Source: Frigidibacter mobilis (GTDB lineage Bacteria > Pseudomonadota > Alphaproteobacteria > Rhodobacterales > Rhodobacteraceae). Taken from it: DNA of 64,000 bases. Below the pieces are notes generated by a model that made no database searches, was not told the origin of the DNA, and was given only the letters and a program-made list of their open reading frames with translations. Made by a program: the position numbers and the translations under genes. The stretch lies in contig NZ_CP012661.1 in assembly GCF_001620265.1 (NCBI RefSeq), positions 3,100,001 through 3,164,000 of the forward strand. The letters run 5' to 3'. This document shows, piece by piece, positions 2 to 16,690 of this stretch (position 1 is its first letter; every line of letters starts with the position of its first letter).

Positions 2-415
2 GGGCCAAGGCCGGTGATCGCGGTCAACGTCATCGTGCTGGCGCTGGTGGCGCTTGGCATCATCTTCATCTCGCGCACATCGGTCTTCGGGATGCCGGTT
101 GGGTCGGACAGCGCCCTGCCCGACATCGTCTTCTATGCGATGGGCGCGTTGATCGGTGCGGCAGGGGGCGCGCTGCAATCGGCGAGCCGGACCATGCTGG
201 TGCGCCAGGCCGATCCGTCGCAAATGACCGAGGCGTTCGGGCTTTATGCGCTGGCGGGCAAGGCCACCTCGTTCATCGCGCCTCTGTCGATCGGTGCGGT
301 CACGCAATTGACCGGCAGCCAGCAGGCCGGGATTTCTCCCCTGATCGTGTTGTTCCTTCTGGGGCTGGTCCTGCTATCTTGGGTCAACCCCGATGGAGAG
401 GAGGGCCCGGCATGA
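2..415 (+). CDS. MFS transporter, UMF1 type (C-terminal part, cut by window start)
   Basis: The reading frame is open from base 2, so this is the tail of a gene that starts outside the window. About 138 residues remain. They show hydrophobic helices (around IVLALVALGIIFIS, FYAMGALIGAAGGALQ and LIVLFLLGLVLLSW) and the loop SASRTMLVRQADPSQMTEAF followed by GLYALAGKATSFIAPL, which is typical of the last helices of UMF1/Atg22-like major facilitator transporters. The substrate cannot be told. The stop codon overlaps the mepA start (ATGA), so the two genes are translationally coupled. Confidence 0.8.
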   Translation, partial: GPRPVIAVNVIVLALVALGIIFISRTSVFGMPVGSDSALPDIVFYAMGALIGAAGGALQSASRTMLVRQADPSQMTEAFGLYALAGKATSFIAPLSIGAVTQLTGSQQAGISPLIVLFLLGLVLLSWVNPDGEEGPA

Positions 416-3275: not shown

Positions 3276-3351
<76 letters not shown>

Positions 3352-4153: not shown

Positions 4154-5626
4154 ATGTCTCGCGCCCTGCCCTCCCTCCTTGCCCTCGCGCTCAGCGCCAG
4201 TGCGGCGCTTGCTGCGCCCCCGGACAGCCTCACCCTCGGCATGGTGCTGGAGCCGCCGAACCTCGACCCCACCGCCGGCGCCGCGGCGGCGATCGACGAG
4301 GTGGTCTATGCCAACCTCTTCGAGGGCCTCACCCGCTTCGGCCCCGATGGCACGATCCTGCCGGGCCTGGCGACAAGCTGGGACGTGGAGGACGACGGCA
4401 AGGTCTGGACCTTCCATCTGGCGCAGGGCGTGACCTTCCATGACGGCAGCACCTTCGACGCCGAGGATGTCGCCTTCAGCCTGAACCGCGCCCGCGCCGA
4501 AGGCAGCGCCAATGCGCAGAAGGCGCTGTTCGCCGCCATCGAAACCGTCGAGGTGCTGGACCCGGCCACGGTGCGCGTGACCCTCTCGGCCCCGAATGCC
4601 GGGTTCGATTTCAACATGGCCTGGGGCGATGCGGTGATCCTGGCGCCCGAAACCGCCGATGGCGCCGCCACCGCGCCCGTCGGCACCGGCCCGTTCAAGC
4701 TGGCCGAATGGGTGCAGGGCGACCATGTCACGCTGGAGGCGTTCGACGGCTACTGGGGCGAGAAGCCGGCCCTGACCCGCGCCACCTTCCGCTTCATCTC
4801 GGACCCGACCGCCGCCTTCGCGGCGATGATGGCCGGCGATATCGACGCCTTCCCGAACTTCCCCGCCCCCGAGACGCTGGCCCAGCTTGGCGCCGATCCG
4901 CGCTTCAAGGTGATCGTCGGCAGCACCGAGGGCGAGACCATCCTGGCGATGAACAACGCCAAGGCCCCGCTCGACAATCCCAAGGTCCGTGAAGCCATCG
5001 CCCATGCGATCAACCGGCAGGATATCATCGACGGCGCGATGTTCGGCTATGGCACCCCCATCGGTACCCATTTCGCCCCGCACAACCCCGACTATGTCGA
5101 TCTCATCGGCCTGTCGGACCATGACCCCGACCTGTCCCGCAAGCTGCTGGCCGAAGCCGGGGCCGAGGGCCTGACCCTGCGCCTCGCGCTGCCGCCGCCC
5201 ACCTATGCCCGCCGCGGCGGCGAGATCATCGCAGCACAGCTGCGCGACGTCGGGATTGCAACCGAGGTCAGCAACCTCGAATGGGCGCAATGGCTGGAAC
5301 AGGTGTTCAAGGGCCATGACTTCGACCTGACCATCATCAGCCATGTCGAACCGATGGACATCAACATCTACGCCCGGCCCGACTACTACTTCAGCTATGC
5401 TAGGCCGGAATTCGTGGCGATCATGGACAAGCTGGCGCTGACCACCGATGCCGCCGCAAGGTCGGACCTGCTGAAACAGGCCCAGACGATGATCGCCGAA
5501 GATCACGTCAACGCCTACCTGTTCCAGCTCGCCAAGACCGGCGTCGCCGATGCCCGGCTGGAAGGGCTGTGGGCGAACTCTCCCACCCCCGCCAACGACC
5601 TGACGGCGGTGCACTGGAGCCACTGA
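4154..5626 (+). CDS. ABC transporter substrate-binding protein, family 5 (peptide/nickel type)
   Basis: A 490-residue periplasmic binding protein with a signal peptide MSRALPSLLALALSASAALA. Family-5 features include LTLGMVLEPPNLDPTAGAAA, VVYANLFEGLTRFGPDG, the PLATSWDVEDDGKVWTF-type segment, FHDGSTFDAEDVAFSLNRA and PVGTGPFKLAEW. It presumably feeds the permeases and ATPase encoded 5-10 kb away on the other strand (10922-14245), since no permease adjoins it. The cupin gene 86 bp downstream has the same 44-bp operator as the permease operon. The substrate is unproven: a peptide is the family default, and a creatine-like compound is possible from the nearby creatinase gene. Confidence 0.9.
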   Translation: MSRALPSLLALALSASAALAAPPDSLTLGMVLEPPNLDPTAGAAAAIDEVVYANLFEGLTRFGPDGTILPGLATSWDVEDDGKVWTFHLAQGVTFHDGSTFDAEDVAFSLNRARAEGSANAQKALFAAIETVEVLDPATVRVTLSAPNAGFDFNMAWGDAVILAPETADGAATAPVGTGPFKLAEWVQGDHVTLEAFDGYWGEKPALTRATFRFISDPTAAFAAMMAGDIDAFPNFPAPETLAQLGADPRFKVIVGSTEGETILAMNNAKAPLDNPKVREAIAHAINRQDIIDGAMFGYGTPIGTHFAPHNPDYVDLIGLSDHDPDLSRKLLAEAGAEGLTLRLALPPPTYARRGGEIIAAQLRDVGIATEVSNLEWAQWLEQVFKGHDFDLTIISHVEPMDINIYARPDYYFSYARPEFVAIMDKLALTTDAAARSDLLKQAQTMIAEDHVNAYLFQLAKTGVADARLEGLWANSPTPANDLTAVHWSH

Positions 5627-5656
5627 GCGGGCCGCAAACCCCTCGTCAAATCGTAT

Positions 5657-5700
5657 GTATGGAAACCATATCGTTTCCATACGCTTTCCATATGCTTTCC
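5657..5700 (+). promoter_or_regulatory. Operator upstream of the cupin gene (copy 1 of a shared 44-bp element)
   Basis: A perfect inverted repeat GTATGGAAAC-N6-GTTTCCATAC (5657-5682) is followed by two further TTTCC half-sites. The three TTTCC units start at 5674, 5685 and 5696, exactly 11 bp apart. The element ends 12 bp before the cupin ATG. Read toward its gene, it matches the minus-strand element at 14267-14310 at 39 of 44 positions. The repressor or activator is not identified. Confidence 0.75.
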
Positions 5701-5711
5701 CGGAGCCCCGA

Positions 5712-6053
5712 ATGACCCATTTCCTGCGCCTCGACCGTGGCAGCGTCACCCCCGAGGTAGACCGTCCCGACCCCTCGCTGGTCCTCGCCGGCGACCCCGT
5801 CCACACCACCTGGCTGCACGAGGAGCGCGACACCCTCTATGCCGGGATGTGGCAGACCACCCCCGGCATCTGGAAGGTGGACTACTCGGAATGGGAATAT
5901 GTCCACATCCTCTCCGGCACCTCGATCCTCACGGAAGAGGGCGGCGCGCCGCAGACCCTGACCGCCGGCGACAGCTTCCTGATCCGCCCCGGCTTCAAGG
6001 GAACGTGGGAATGCGTGGAGACCACGCTGAAGGATTTCGTCATCCTGGAATGA
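5712..6053 (+). CDS. Cupin domain-containing protein (Cupin_3/DUF861 type)
   Basis: A 113-residue single-domain cupin. The cupin core is visible in MWQTTPGIWKVDYSEWEYVH, ILSGTSILTEEGG and LTAGDSFLIRPGFKGTWECV, resembling the EutQ-like/DUF861 group where a sugar, amine or ureido compound may bind. The catalytic or sensory role is unknown. I chose the ATG at 5712 because an upstream in-frame ATG at 5655 would translate through the operator. The position behind an operator shared with the peptide-type permease operon suggests a part in the same catabolic programme. Confidence 0.8.
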   Translation: MTHFLRLDRGSVTPEVDRPDPSLVLAGDPVHTTWLHEERDTLYAGMWQTTPGIWKVDYSEWEYVHILSGTSILTEEGGAPQTLTAGDSFLIRPGFKGTWECVETTLKDFVILE

Positions 6054-12489: not shown

Positions 12490-13301
12490 GCCCGCCGCCC
12501 CCGGCTGCGCGGGTCCAGCGCATCGCGCAGCCCGTCGCCCAGCAGGTTCAGCCCCAGCACCGTCAGCACGATTGCCAGCCCCGGGAACAGCGCCACATGC
12601 GGCGCCAGCGTCACCATCGTCTGCGCCTCGGCCAGCATCCGGCCCCAGCTGGCGGTGGGCGGCTGCGCGCCAAGGCCGACATAGGACAGCCCCGCCTCGG
12701 CCAGAATGCCAAGGCTGAACTGGATGGTTCCCTGCACGATCAAAATGTTGGCGATGTTGGGCAGGATATGCTCGGCCGAGATCCGCGCGGCGCCCTTGCC
12801 CGCCACCCGCGCCGCGCGGATGTAGTCCAGCGTCCAGAGCCCAAGCGCCCCGCCGCGCGCCACACGCGCAAAGACCGGGATGTTGAAGATGCCGATGGCG
12901 AGGATCGCGTTCAGCGCCGAAGGACCGAAGACCGCGGTAATCAGGATGGCGATCACCAGCGAGGGAAAGGCGAAGATCAGGTCATTGCCGCGCATGATGA
13001 CCTCCTCCAGCCAGCCCCCCGCCCGGGCGGCGGCGATCAGGCCAAGCGGCACCCCCACCGCCATGCCGATGCCGACCGCAACCAGCGCAACGGCAATCGA
13101 GGTGCGCGCGCCGGACATCAGCATCGAGCCGATGTCGCGCCCGAAGTGATCGGTGCCCAGCCAATGCGCGGCCGAGGGGCCCTGCAGCTTGGCGGCGATG
13201 TTCAGGGCGCCGATATCATAGGGTGTCCAGACCAGCGACAGGCCCGCGGCCAGCAGCGCGGCGAGGGCCAGCACGGCGCCGAGGATCAGTTGCGGCCTCA
13301 T
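12486..13301 (-). CDS. Peptide-type ABC transporter permease (DppC family)
   Basis: A 271-residue inner-membrane permease with about six helices. It has the N-terminal HWLGTDHFGRDIGSMLMSGA motif of DppC/OppC proteins and the EAA-loop region DYIRAARVAGKGAARISAEH ahead of ILPNIANILIVQGTIQFS. The start at 13301 overlaps the stop of the first permease (ATGA), and its own stop overlaps the ATPase start, so all three are translated as one coupled operon. The same frame is open far upstream through the first permease gene, but that part is out-of-frame read-through with no conserved sequence. Confidence 0.92.
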   Translation of the reverse strand: MRPQLILGAVLALAALLAAGLSLVWTPYDIGALNIAAKLQGPSAAHWLGTDHFGRDIGSMLMSGARTSIAVALVAVGIGMAVGVPLGLIAAARAGGWLEEVIMRGNDLIFAFPSLVIAILITAVFGPSALNAILAIGIFNIPVFARVARGGALGLWTLDYIRAARVAGKGAARISAEHILPNIANILIVQGTIQFSLGILAEAGLSYVGLGAQPPTASWGRMLAEAQTMVTLAPHVALFPGLAIVLTVLGLNLLGDGLRDALDPRSRGRRA

Positions 13302-14245
13302 CCGCGGCGCCTCAGACGCGGGTCGACGAGCGCATAGGCGATGTCGGTGGCGAAGGTGACGAGGATCACCGCGAAGACGAGGATCATCACCACGGATTCC
13401 ACCACGATCAGGTCGCGCTGCGTGATCGCCTGGAAGATTAGCCGGCCAAGCCCCGGTAAATAAAACACATTCTCGATGATGATCGCGCCGGCCAGCAGGA
13501 ACGAAAACTGCATCCCCAGGATGGTCAGCACCGGCACCAGCGCGTTGCGCAGGGCGTGGTGGGTCAAGGCGCGGCGCTGCGTGAGGCCCTTGGCGCGGGC
13601 GGTGCGGATATAATCCTGCTCCAGCGTCTCGATCAGGGCGGAGCGCAGGACGCGCGCCAGGATCGCCGCCTGCGGCAGCGCCAGCGCGATGGAGGGCAGA
13701 AGCAAGCCTTTGAAAGCAGGGACTATTCCTGCATTCCAGCCCGGGAATCCGCCGGCAGGGAGCCAGCGCAGGTTGACGGCGAAGACCAGCACCAGCAGCA
13801 TGGCGAACCAGAAGTTCGGGACCGCGATGCCCAGTTGCGTCAGCCCCATCACCACGGCGTCGCCGGGGCGACCGCGGCGGGCGGCGGCGTGGAGGCCGAC
13901 GGGCAGCGCGATGGCCGTCGACAGCGCCAGCGCCAGCAGCGCGAGCGGCAGGGATACCGCCATCCGGTCGGCGACCAGATCGGCAACGGGAACCTTGTAA
14001 GTGTATGATATCCCGAAATCTCCGGTCAGCATCCCGCCCACCCAGGACAGGTAGCGCGCCGGCAATGATCCGGTCAGCCCCAGCGTTTCGCGCAGCGCCG
14101 CCACCGTCTCGGGGCTGGCATTCAGGCCCAGCATGAAGGCGGCTGGATCGCCCGGAATGACCTCGATCACCGCGAAGACCACGAGACTGGCCACGATCAG
14201 GCTGAGGCAGAGCGCAAGCAGGCGGCGGGCGAGGAAGCGCAGCAT
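13298..14245 (-). CDS. Peptide-type ABC transporter permease (DppB family)
   Basis: A 315-residue inner-membrane permease that starts MLRFLARRLLALCLSLIVAS, as DppB proteins do. Family markers are IPGDPAAFMLG, the LGLTGSLPARYLSWVGGMLT segment, GDFGISYTYKVPV, the EAA loop DYIRTARAKGLTQRRALTHH followed by ALRNALVPVLTILGMQF, and FYLPGLGRLIFQAITQRDL. I chose the ATG at 14245, with AAAGG ahead of it, because longer starts would translate the operator at 14267-14310. It is the first gene of the permease-permease-ATPase operon. Confidence 0.93.
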   Translation of the reverse strand: MLRFLARRLLALCLSLIVASLVVFAVIEVIPGDPAAFMLGLNASPETVAALRETLGLTGSLPARYLSWVGGMLTGDFGISYTYKVPVADLVADRMAVSLPLALLALALSTAIALPVGLHAAARRGRPGDAVVMGLTQLGIAVPNFWFAMLLVLVFAVNLRWLPAGGFPGWNAGIVPAFKGLLLPSIALALPQAAILARVLRSALIETLEQDYIRTARAKGLTQRRALTHHALRNALVPVLTILGMQFSFLLAGAIIIENVFYLPGLGRLIFQAITQRDLIVVESVVMILVFAVILVTFATDIAYALVDPRLRRRG

Positions 14246-14266: not shown

Positions 14267-14310
14267 GGAAGGCATATGGAATGCATATGGAAACCATATG
14301 GTTTTCATAC
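14267..14310 (-). promoter_or_regulatory. Operator of the permease operon (copy 2 of the shared 44-bp element)
   Basis: On the minus strand this is GTATGAAAAC-N6-GTTTCCATAT followed by two further TTCC half-sites toward the gene. The half-sites, seen on plus as GGAA at 14267, 14278 and 14289, are exactly 11 bp apart. It lies 22 bp upstream of the permease start and matches the cupin element (5657-5700) at 39 of 44 positions. Confidence 0.75.
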
Positions 14311-14388
14311 ATACGTTTTCCGGCAGGCTAGAGGCAGCAGGCGCGAGGGTCCAGTGGCTGTGATGCGGAAATCGGCTTGCACCAACGG

Positions 14389-14627: not shown

Positions 14628-15620
14628 ATGCGGACGGGACCAAGGAATTTGATTACCGATGTGGCGGGGCTTCGGGTCGGCAATGCCGGTGATGCCCGGC
14701 TGCGCAGTGGCGCGACGGTGCTGGTGGGCGATCTGCCCTTCACCGCCGCGGTGCATGTGATGGGCGGCGCGCCCGGCACGCGCGAGACCGATCTGCTGGC
14801 CCCCGACAAGCTGGTGCAGCAGGTGGATGCGCTGGTGCTGTCCGGCGGGTCGGCCTTCGGCCTCGATGCCGCCTCCGGCGCGGCGGACGGGCTGCGGGCG
14901 ATGGGGCGCGGCTTCGTGGTGGGCAACCAGCGGGTGCCGATCGTGCCCGGCGCGATCCTGTTCGACCTGCTGAACGGCGGCGACAAGGGCTGGACCGAAA
15001 ACCCCTACAAGCCGCTGGGACGGGCGGCGCTGGCGGCAGCGGCGGAAGACTTCGCGCTTGGCACCGCCGGGGCCGGCACCGGGGCCACCTGCCACGGGCT
15101 GAAGGGCGGGCTTGGCTCGGCTTCCGTGGTGCTGGAGAGCGGGCTGACGGTGGGCGCGCTGGTGGCGGTCAATGCGCTCGGCTCCGTCACGGTCGGGGAC
15201 GGCCCGCAGTTCTGGGCGGCCCCCTGGGAACTGGGGGGCGAGTTCGGCGGCCTCGGCCTGCCCGGGCGCTTCCCCGCGGCGGAGGAGCCGGCGCTGGCCA
15301 AGCACCGGGGCGAGGCGACAACCATCGCCATAATCGCCACCGATGCGGCGCTGACCCAGGCCCAGGCGCAGCGGCTGGCGGTGGCGGCGCATGACGGGAT
15401 GGCGCGGGCCATCGTGCCCAGCCACACGCCGTTCGACGGCGATCTGGTCTTTGCCGCGGCTACCGGCGCGCGCGAGATGGCAGACCCGATTGCCGACCCG
15501 TTCCAGCTTGGCCATGCCGCGGCCTGCTGCCTGGCGCGGGCGATTGCGCGGGCGGTCTATCTGGCGACGCCGGAGCCGGGGGATACGCTGCCGGCCTGGT
15601 CGGCGCGGCATGGGCAGTAG
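14628..15620 (+). CDS. P1 family peptidase (DmpA/NylC-like autoprocessing hydrolase)
   Basis: A 330-residue N-terminal-nucleophile-type hydrolase. The start region RTGPRNLITDVAGLRVGNAG and the blocks LVLSGGSAFGLDAASGAA, PYKPLG, GTGATCHGLKGGLGSASV, VGALVAVNALGSV and TIAIIATDAALT are typical. In this family the precursor is cut before a Thr or Ser that becomes the nucleophile. Here the expected site reads GEATTIAIIATD, with Ala where relatives I know have Asn before the Thr. Known members act on beta- and D-aminopeptides or nylon oligomers. The gene is divergent from the permease operon, so a role in using imported peptides is plausible. Confidence 0.85.
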   Translation: MRTGPRNLITDVAGLRVGNAGDARLRSGATVLVGDLPFTAAVHVMGGAPGTRETDLLAPDKLVQQVDALVLSGGSAFGLDAASGAADGLRAMGRGFVVGNQRVPIVPGAILFDLLNGGDKGWTENPYKPLGRAALAAAAEDFALGTAGAGTGATCHGLKGGLGSASVVLESGLTVGALVAVNALGSVTVGDGPQFWAAPWELGGEFGGLGLPGRFPAAEEPALAKHRGEATTIAIIATDAALTQAQAQRLAVAAHDGMARAIVPSHTPFDGDLVFAAATGAREMADPIADPFQLGHAAACCLARAIARAVYLATPEPGDTLPAWSARHGQ

Positions 15621-15754: not shown

Positions 15755-16690
15755 ATGTCACCCACCCCATCCCCTGAAACCATAGACGCCATCCGCACCG
15801 CATCGCGTGAACTGGTGCGCCAGCTCGGTTTCATGGGAGGAAAATTTGCAGGGACCGACCTGCCCACTTCTGCGGTTCATGCTCTTATCGAGATCGAGTC
15901 CGGTGGAGTGACCGCGCGCGATCTGACCGAGCGCCTTCATCTGGAAAAGTCGAGCATCAGCCGGATGCTGCGCAAACTCGTCGAATCCGGCGAGGTGGTC
16001 GAGCAGCCCGGCGAAGATGGACGCGTCAAGATTCTGGCCCTCTCCGAGGCCGGGAAACGGCGGGTGCTTGCAATTCATGCCTTTGCCGCTGCGCAGGTAT
16101 CAGGTGCTCTTGATCGCCTGACACCTGACCAGGCGCACAGCGTCAAGGAGGGATTGATCCTGTACTCGGCCGCCCTGGCGGCGCAGACCTTGCATAGGCC
16201 GCCGGTCGGGGTAATCCCGGGCTATCAGACTGGGCTGATTGCCCGGATCACACAGATGCACGCGCTTTACTATGCCCGCCGTGCGGGGTTTGGGCAGCAG
16301 TTCGAAGCCGGGGTTGCGGGCGGACTTGCCGAGTTCTGCACCCGGCTGCACCATCCAGGAAACGCCATCTGGACAGCCATGCAAGGGCATGAAGTCGTCG
16401 GATCAATCGCCATCGACGGCGAGGATCTGGGCCAGAATATCGCCCATCTGCGCTGGTTCATCCTTGACGATCACGTTCGGGGAACCGGGGCCGGTCGAAG
16501 ACTGCTTTCCGCCGCGCTCGACTTCGCCGACGAGAAGGACTTCGCAGAAGTCCATCTGTGGACTTTCAGCGGCCTCGATGCAGCGCGGCACCTCTATGAA
16601 AGTCATGGGTTTGGGTTGGAAGAGGAACGGCCGGGCGCCCAATGGGGCAAGGAAGTCCTGGAGCAGAGATTCGTGCGGCGCCTGGCTTGA
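15755..16690 (+). CDS. MarR-type HTH / GNAT acetyltransferase fusion protein
   Basis: A 311-residue two-domain protein. Residues about 1-140 form a MarR-like winged helix (TSAVHALIEIESGGVTARDL, ERLHLEKSSISRMLRKLVES, then GRVKILALSEAGKRRV). Residues about 155-311 form a GNAT acetyltransferase (AHLRWFILDDHVRGTGAGRR, where RGTGAGRRLL is the acetyl-CoA loop, then HLYESHGFGLEEERPGAQWG). Such fusions are common in proteobacteria and their substrates are mostly unknown. A palindrome at 15721-15741 is a likely autoregulatory site. Confidence 0.9.
   Translation: MSPTPSPETIDAIRTASRELVRQLGFMGGKFAGTDLPTSAVHALIEIESGGVTARDLTERLHLEKSSISRMLRKLVESGEVVEQPGEDGRVKILALSEAGKRRVLAIHAFAAAQVSGALDRLTPDQAHSVKEGLILYSAALAAQTLHRPPVGVIPGYQTGLIARITQMHALYYARRAGFGQQFEAGVAGGLAEFCTRLHHPGNAIWTAMQGHEVVGSIAIDGEDLGQNIAHLRWFILDDHVRGTGAGRRLLSAALDFADEKDFAEVHLWTFSGLDAARHLYESHGFGLEEERPGAQWGKEVLEQRFVRRLA

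Follow-up and report, generated by a model that had tools for sequence, protein, structure and literature searches.

Dispersed arrays of 11-bp direct repeats in Rhodobacteraceae: candidate chromosome-wide binding platforms

Results

Two related arrays on the chromosome of Frigidibacter mobilis

The window, a stretch of 64,000 nucleotides of the F. mobilis chromosome (NZ_CP012661.1, positions 3,100,001 to 3,164,000), contains two similar non-coding elements, denoted here as arrays A and B. One lies between a solute-binding protein gene and a cupin gene, the other upstream of the permease genes of a transporter. The features of both sites are as follows (positions in the window).

4154 to 5626, plus strand: family 5 solute-binding protein gene (SBP_bac_5), ending 28 bp before array A
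5655 to 5700, plus strand: array A, four 11-bp units followed by CC, between the stop of the solute-binding protein gene and the cupin start
5655-5665, 5666-5676, 5677-5687 and 5688-5698, plus strand: units of array A, in this order the variant ATGTATGGAAA, CCATATCGTTT, CCATACGCTTT and CCATATGCTTT
5712 to 6053, plus strand: cupin gene (Cupin_3), starting 11 bp after array A
13298 to 14245, minus strand: first permease gene (BPD_transp_1) of a dipeptide-type ABC transporter, downstream of array B
14267 to 14312, minus strand: array B, four 11-bp units followed by CC, upstream of the first permease gene
14312-14302, 14301-14291, 14290-14280 and 14279-14269, minus strand: units of array B, in this order the variant ATGTATGAAAA, CCATATGGTTT, CCATATGCATT and CCATATGCCTT
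14628 to 15620, plus strand: Peptidase_S58 (DmpA-type) gene, divergent from array B

The first-pass annotation of this DNA had assigned one common 44-bp operator to the cupin gene and the permease operon. The similarity itself was confirmed: positions 5657-5700 (plus strand) and 14267-14310 (minus strand) are identical at 39 of 44 positions and the sequences that flank them are unrelated, although the match extends another 5 bp (CGTAT) before the start of 5657-5700. The binomial chance of at least 39 identities in 44 is 8e-17 per pair at this composition, which for about 4e9 pairs is far beyond chance, and the next-best ungapped matches in the window (30-31 of 44) are offset matches at A and B themselves. 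These offset matches accompany a tandem repeat with a period of 11 bp. In both arrays a variant first unit, ATGTATGRAAA, is followed by CCATAYSNNTT and twice by CCATAYGNNTT, so that the consensus of the units is CCATAYGNNTT with CATAY as its core. A leader peptide was considered at both sites and rejected, as the reading frames differ and, by eye, lack a convincing synonymous pattern.

Two observations concern the surroundings of array B. A fused MarR-GNAT gene (15755-16690 of the window, plus strand), 1.4 kb from the array, may regulate the peptide transporter cluster locally. In addition, a Peptidase_S58 relative is found in Puniceibacterium antarcticum (L141) close to an array that adjoins the same permeases.

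A family of arrays beside unrelated genes

A 29-bp pattern built from A and B matched seven sites in the F. mobilis genome. A pattern of about two units, with at most two mismatches, gave 46 matches, which correspond to 32 merged loci confined to the main chromosome, whereas its reversed control gave none in this genome. The 32 loci can be aligned without gaps and share one common architecture. According to the gene caller 29 of them are intergenic and three lie inside called open reading frames. Their neighbours are unrelated in function and include serA, leuD, lpd, chorismate mutase, cobT, efp, dnaX, radC and hisF. The element is therefore not limited to the cupin gene and the permease operon, to which it had been assigned at first.

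The names of the neighbours rest on 20 scanned proteins. NCBIfam matches above the cut-off were obtained for serC, serA, leuD, lpd, chorismate mutase, cobS, efp, dnaX, radC and hisF, for leuC, sarcosine oxidase beta and a HAD hydrolase (all in G149) and for a manganese pyrophosphatase. The proteins of cobT, livG, livH, the Lrp-like gene and gltB (the last in G201) scored below the cut-off or were cut by the end of the locus. The names of hisA, gltD and a MAPEG-like gene beside lpd were given by eye from the translations, and NCBIfam gave no match for the MAPEG-like gene.

Four units is the common length. Among 163 arrays, for which the named loci had been selected by a three-unit pattern, 88 have four units, 47 have three, 20 have five or six and eight have fewer. 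Some copies share letters beyond the units: GTATGTATG precedes the array in 11 of the 32 F. mobilis copies, in 6 of 15 copies in G149 and in 3 of 8 in G152, and in none in G049, G130 and G067. The longer AAATCGTATGTAT stands before seven of the 32 F. mobilis copies (e.g. L001, L009, L019, L036, L040, L041, L045). These shared letters could be a trace of copying, or form part of a longer site.

Arrays lie preferentially behind genes

The placement of the arrays was analyzed in two sets. The first comprised 140 arrays, with one Frigidibacter species represented and duplicates removed, of which 16 at locus edges were left unclassed. Convergent gaps are enriched in this set (28 of 124 arrays versus 28 of 239 background gaps, p=0.009), divergent gaps are depleted (17 of 124 versus 67 of 239, p=0.002), and in long tandem gaps the stop is closer than the start in 40 of 59 cases (p=0.009); the median distances are 38 bp to the stop and 104 bp to the next start. 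The second set held 76 arrays from 12 further genomes: 14 in convergent gaps, 7 in divergent gaps, 46 in tandem gaps, 6 at edges and 3 inside open reading frames. The depletion of divergent gaps (7 of 67 versus 21 of 52, p=0.0002) and the proximity to the stop (24 of 30, p=0.001; medians 24 bp to the stop and 93 bp to the next start) were found again, and the enrichment in convergent gaps was not significant (14 of 67 versus 6 of 52, p=0.22). Tandem-gap arrays run with transcription in 52 and against it in 27 cases in the first set, and in 27 and 19 cases in the second. Arrays are also located inside likely operons, such as leuC-leuD, cobS-cobT and hisA-hisF.

The preference for the stop and the depletion of divergent gaps imply that the arrays are mostly not where operators of the downstream gene are expected. 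What stands of the shared-operator reading is thus a specific, conserved, non-coding element, probably recognized by one putative protein. The operator of a split transport and catabolism regulon, the second part of that reading, is not supported, considering that the arrays lie beside unrelated genes, favour the stop side of genes, avoid divergent gaps and occur in both orientations.

A much wider regulon deserves more attention and is the main rival of the interpretation given below. In that case the arrays would be the operators of one global regulator (of the OmpR/PhoB type, Lrp-like or ribbon-helix-helix) that adjusts the genes beside them, many of which are related to amino acids or peptides. 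The Pho box is an operator of the OmpR/PhoB family, and direct repeats with an 11-bp period, as found in the arrays, are typical of OmpR-family regulators; the head-to-tail binding of such proteins is predicted for the arrays as well. Moreover, many neighbours in F. mobilis have, by eye, the appropriate function (serC/serA, leuC/leuD, sarcosine oxidase beta, chorismate mutase, a livG/livH-like pair, hisF, the Lrp-like gene and a peptide transporter), and the array runs with the genes in 52 of 79 and 27 of 46 tandem cases and keeps its orientation at most of the gaps shared between genera (see below). Nevertheless, the arrays avoid the divergent gaps where promoters reside and are closer to stops than to starts, they occur inside likely operons, in convergent gaps and in both orientations, and neighbours such as dnaX, efp and radC fit no pathway. 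The promoter position of OmpR/PhoB-type operators was not observed, as judged from codons and not from transcription starts. We therefore consider a large regulon unlikely, though deserving of serious thought, and the arrays may have a gene-regulatory role.

Distribution and genome-specific dialects

A strict pattern was found in 6 of 149 Rhodobacteraceae genomes when one mismatch was allowed, and without mismatches in 6 of 394. Within the genus it is present in three of five species (F. mobilis, G149 and G152), and a genome-wide scan with the strict pattern gave nothing in G150 and G151. A scan of named genomes yielded 117 stretches, all but 10 of which are titled Rhodobacteraceae or one of its genera; the 10 titled as other groups were taken as chance and excluded, as were L144 and L213, which are duplicates of G149. 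Array-bearing named taxa include Puniceibacterium, Octadecabacter, Maritimibacter, Rhodovulum steppense, Marinosulfonomonas and Amaricoccus. A relaxed pattern of four CATAY cores every 11 bp (at most one mismatch) matched in 30 of 394 genomes and at least three times in 21 of these (20 genera), where the counts include overlapping matches and the reversed-core control is invalid since YATAC overlaps CATAC. Fewer than three relaxed matches were present in 373 of 393 sampled Rhodobacteraceae genera, which indicates that the array system is dispensable. In 380 genomes of other alphaproteobacterial families, scanned without mismatches, one genome had one exact match. The arrays are thus near-restricted to the Rhodobacteraceae.

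Two genomes stand out in these scans. The lone exact four-unit CATAY match outside the family (L385, in G628) lies in a 0.8-Mb genome and is probably due to chance. Puniceibacterium sediminis (G067) has 105 relaxed matches, the most among the 394 genomes, overlaps in longer arrays included. An origin from phages or plasmids was considered and rejected: the four viral contigs with a match show no common context, and the plasmid and phage collections contain no array, just partial matches at E 0.7-0.8.

The core is shared between genomes and the spacer letters are not. Each of the compared genomes has a spacer consensus of its own, for instance CATATGCAgGT, CATACGCcAGC or CATAcGgtTTC (lower case denotes weaker letters). 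In 59 hand-chosen exact matches from nine genomes, most overlapping or repeated ones being omitted, spacer identity was 0.73 within genomes versus 0.42 between them. Between genera the spacers therefore change in concert across all arrays of a genome, which argues for one reader per genome.

The dialects also bear on the possibility that the arrays function as RNA, that is as hairpins in 3' or intercistronic mRNA that end transcription or protect mRNA ends. Such a role would agree with the position at gene ends, and the reverse strand of the TTC dialect indeed folds better than shuffled sequences (mean z of -2.6 to -3.6 in four genomes; -0.5 to -2.1 for the forward strand). Yet the non-palindromic dialects barely fold (z of 0.9/-0.2 in G071, 0.0/-1.0 in G344 and -1.1 to -1.8 in G145 and G201), pairing as RNA is not required for direct repeats spaced at 11 bp, and arrays are found in both orientations. 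In line with this, a search of the whole window with Rfam at gathering score gave no match at A or B, the sole match being a tRNA at 3279-3351. A function as RNA hairpin is very improbable on these grounds.

Recurrence at the same gaps, conservation and loss

When a gap was considered shared if both flanking genes are similar (at least 35% identity), and with duplicates kept, 274 arrays in 26 genus groups revealed 14 gaps that hold an array in at least two groups. The leuC-leuD gap does so in five groups, the lpd and chorismate mutase gaps in four each, four gaps in three and seven in two. The number of shared group pairs was 41, versus about 9 expected for random gaps even if all gaps were orthologous, a rough estimate as pairs are not independent and loci with identical cores were dropped. 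At 11 of the 14 shared gaps the orientation is the same in every cross-group comparison; the other three, among them gltB/gltD and serC/serA, show opposite orientations between some groups, and part of the sharing may therefore be independent gain. Such recurrence at single gaps fits gene-specific regulation and DNA architecture equally.

G049 and an Octadecabacter metagenome-assembled genome (MAG) have five array gaps in common (L067, L070, L073, L076, L077, L172, L197, L209, L221, L222). They may therefore be close relatives or belong to one genus, in which case their sharing weighs less; when G049 was merged with the Octadecabacter MAGs, 12 shared gaps and 30 group pairs were left.

Within the genus the core and the spacers of the arrays are better conserved than the flanking intergenic DNA. 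Identities to G149 (14 loci) are 296/322 in the core, 297/336 in the spacers and 937/1218 in the flanks, and those to G152 (7 loci) 145/161, 139/168 and 463/659, with the remark that most loci were recognized by the pattern in each of the two species, a choice that favours the core and, to a lesser degree, the spacers. Array B is conserved below the level of its flanks (14/23 and 15/23) and is one unit shorter in G149 and G152.

The first-pass annotation had made its operator depend on presence at the orthologous promoters of relatives, and both arrays are indeed kept in G149 and G152, and B also in G067, so that the outcome did not refute it: the relatives in the genus that possess the family have the element at these places. 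Specifically, in the best 11 cupin loci of the 13 genomes with a match, site A has an array in G149 (3 mismatches) and G152 (2 mismatches), none in G150, where the gap measures about 27 bp, and one that lies behind the cupin gene in G067; G151 has no cupin match. Site B, surveyed at the 20 of 22 permease loci that could be assessed (all but L307 and L319), has an array in G149, G152 and G067, and none in G150 and the other genomes assessed. In the same survey, which omitted the leuD locus L225, apparent degenerate remains were seen by eye between leuC and leuD in G150 and at site B of G151, and losses that leave relics are probable. Among 17 gaps compared, no other 11-bp array stood out at leuC-leuD in array-less genomes. 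Taken together, we regard the arrays as an old, dispersed family in the Rhodobacteraceae, kept by a minority of genera in locally changed versions.

An old dispersed family might also consist of self-spreading intergenic repeats of the REP or MITE kind, which insert behind genes and are homogenized per genome, without a function for the host. REP and REPIN elements with their RAYT transposases are dispersed, intergenic, located at gene ends and present in genome-specific versions. The arrays resemble them in their extragenic placement at gene ends, the dispersed copies, the dialects and the three flipped shared gaps, and the extra letters before the array in a third of the F. mobilis copies could be read likewise. 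However, the REP transposase domain (Y1_Tnp, PF01797) is absent in all 10 genomes tested from the genus and other array carriers, and its two matches across 31 genomes were in G055 and G094, both without array matches. Moreover, the units are direct repeats with an 11-bp period, most F. mobilis copies share little outside the unit consensus, cores and spacers are conserved above the flanks, array gaps recur across genera, and the plasmid and phage collections are devoid of arrays. Self-spreading repeats are therefore quite improbable and rank third among the explanations.

Chromosomal position

The position of the arrays relative to the origin was tested in two array-bearing genomes with a single-contig chromosome. 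The parS sites are at 4.486 Mb in F. mobilis (G000) and at 3.239 Mb in G049, and GC skew roughly agrees. The distances to the origin are non-uniform, with Kolmogorov-Smirnov p=0.012 for the 32 F. mobilis sites (0.028 for the 24 best), 0.032 for the 14 sites in G049 and 0.0005 combined, and the terminal 30% of the chromosome holds only 3 of the 32 and 1 of the 14 arrays. This bias could be due to core genes near the origin. In a weak and unplanned test, the arrays read toward the origin in 23 of 32 cases in F. mobilis (18 of the 24 best) and 9 of 14 in G049 (p=0.011 combined).

Discussion

Comparison with known systems

Among the closest parallels are the binding sites of the nucleoid-occlusion proteins Noc and SlmA. 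According to PMC4726725 these dispersed sites number around 70 (Noc) and 24-52 (SlmA) and are under-represented near the terminus. The arrays likewise comprise tens of dispersed sites for what is in their case a putative protein; few lie near the terminus in the two genomes examined, which may reflect the bias of core genes. The sites of Noc and SlmA are palindromes, recognized by division inhibitors of the ParB or TetR family, whereas the arrays consist of about four direct 11-bp units in genome-specific dialects and occur in Rhodobacteraceae.

DNA uptake sequences each consist of one word, repeated very often, unlike the arrays, which are multi-unit and number in the tens. Those of the Neisseriaceae share with the arrays that a short repeated signal exists in genome-specific dialects (PMC7371117). 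CenR of Rhodobacter sphaeroides is reported in PMC9275681 to read TGA-N8-TGA at sites in promoters. The TCATAC dialects carry the same TGA-N8-TGA on the other strand, whereas other dialects lack the TGA; in addition, the arrays have about four units and lie behind genes. The main text of a regulatory-network reconstruction for R. sphaeroides (PMC4344238) has no such array under the few terms searched, and the titles and first abstract lines of the top results in a largely open-access literature contain no description of these arrays.

A putative reader and its role

The anatomy, copy number, placement, recurrence at gaps, dialects and near-restriction to the Rhodobacteraceae of the arrays are established. 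On balance, we slightly favour the explanation that the arrays are predicted binding platforms for one dedicated protein, which would act chromosome-wide or at gene ends. Since the unit equals one helical turn, a sequence-specific protein would be arranged head to tail along the roughly four direct units, on one face of the DNA. The direct repeats, the lack of a general RNA fold and the occurrence of both orientations point to a head-to-tail oligomerising protein on double-stranded DNA, and one such protein per genome would read all arrays.

From the same features we infer the reader, its oligomeric state and the function of the arrays. The position behind genes and the avoidance of divergent gaps suggest a role that must not disturb promoters. 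Candidates are DNA architecture, the marking of DNA for segregation or division, and a gene-end barrier, rather than the role of an operator for a single pathway. A more specific version is a chromosome-wide DNA-marking system, in which four-unit arrays behind genes, dense near the origin and poor near the terminus, would be read by one putative protein with a specificity that shifts between genera. It might be an analogue of Noc and SlmA, or else serve chromosome architecture, with dialects that co-evolve fast. We put this version forward as a speculative one that is rather unlikely to hold in full.

A search for the reader on the premise of self-regulation retrieved one recognized regulator beside arrays in at least two groups, which is Lrp-like, where only part of the genes were family-named. 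An array accompanies the Lrp-like gene and an alanine dehydrogenase-like gene in Frigidibacter, Maritimibacter and Puniceibacterium (L033, L056, L176, L206), and in Frigidibacter the array is at the 3' end of the Lrp-like gene.

Arrays such as A and B call for caution against reading them as local operators. If the platform interpretation is true, members of a whole bacterial family would share genome-wide protein-binding arrays, and a short array used as bait would make the putative binding protein directly fishable. The fixed gaps with their jointly changing letters would then document, as few natural cases do, how a DNA-binding protein changed together with all of its sites.
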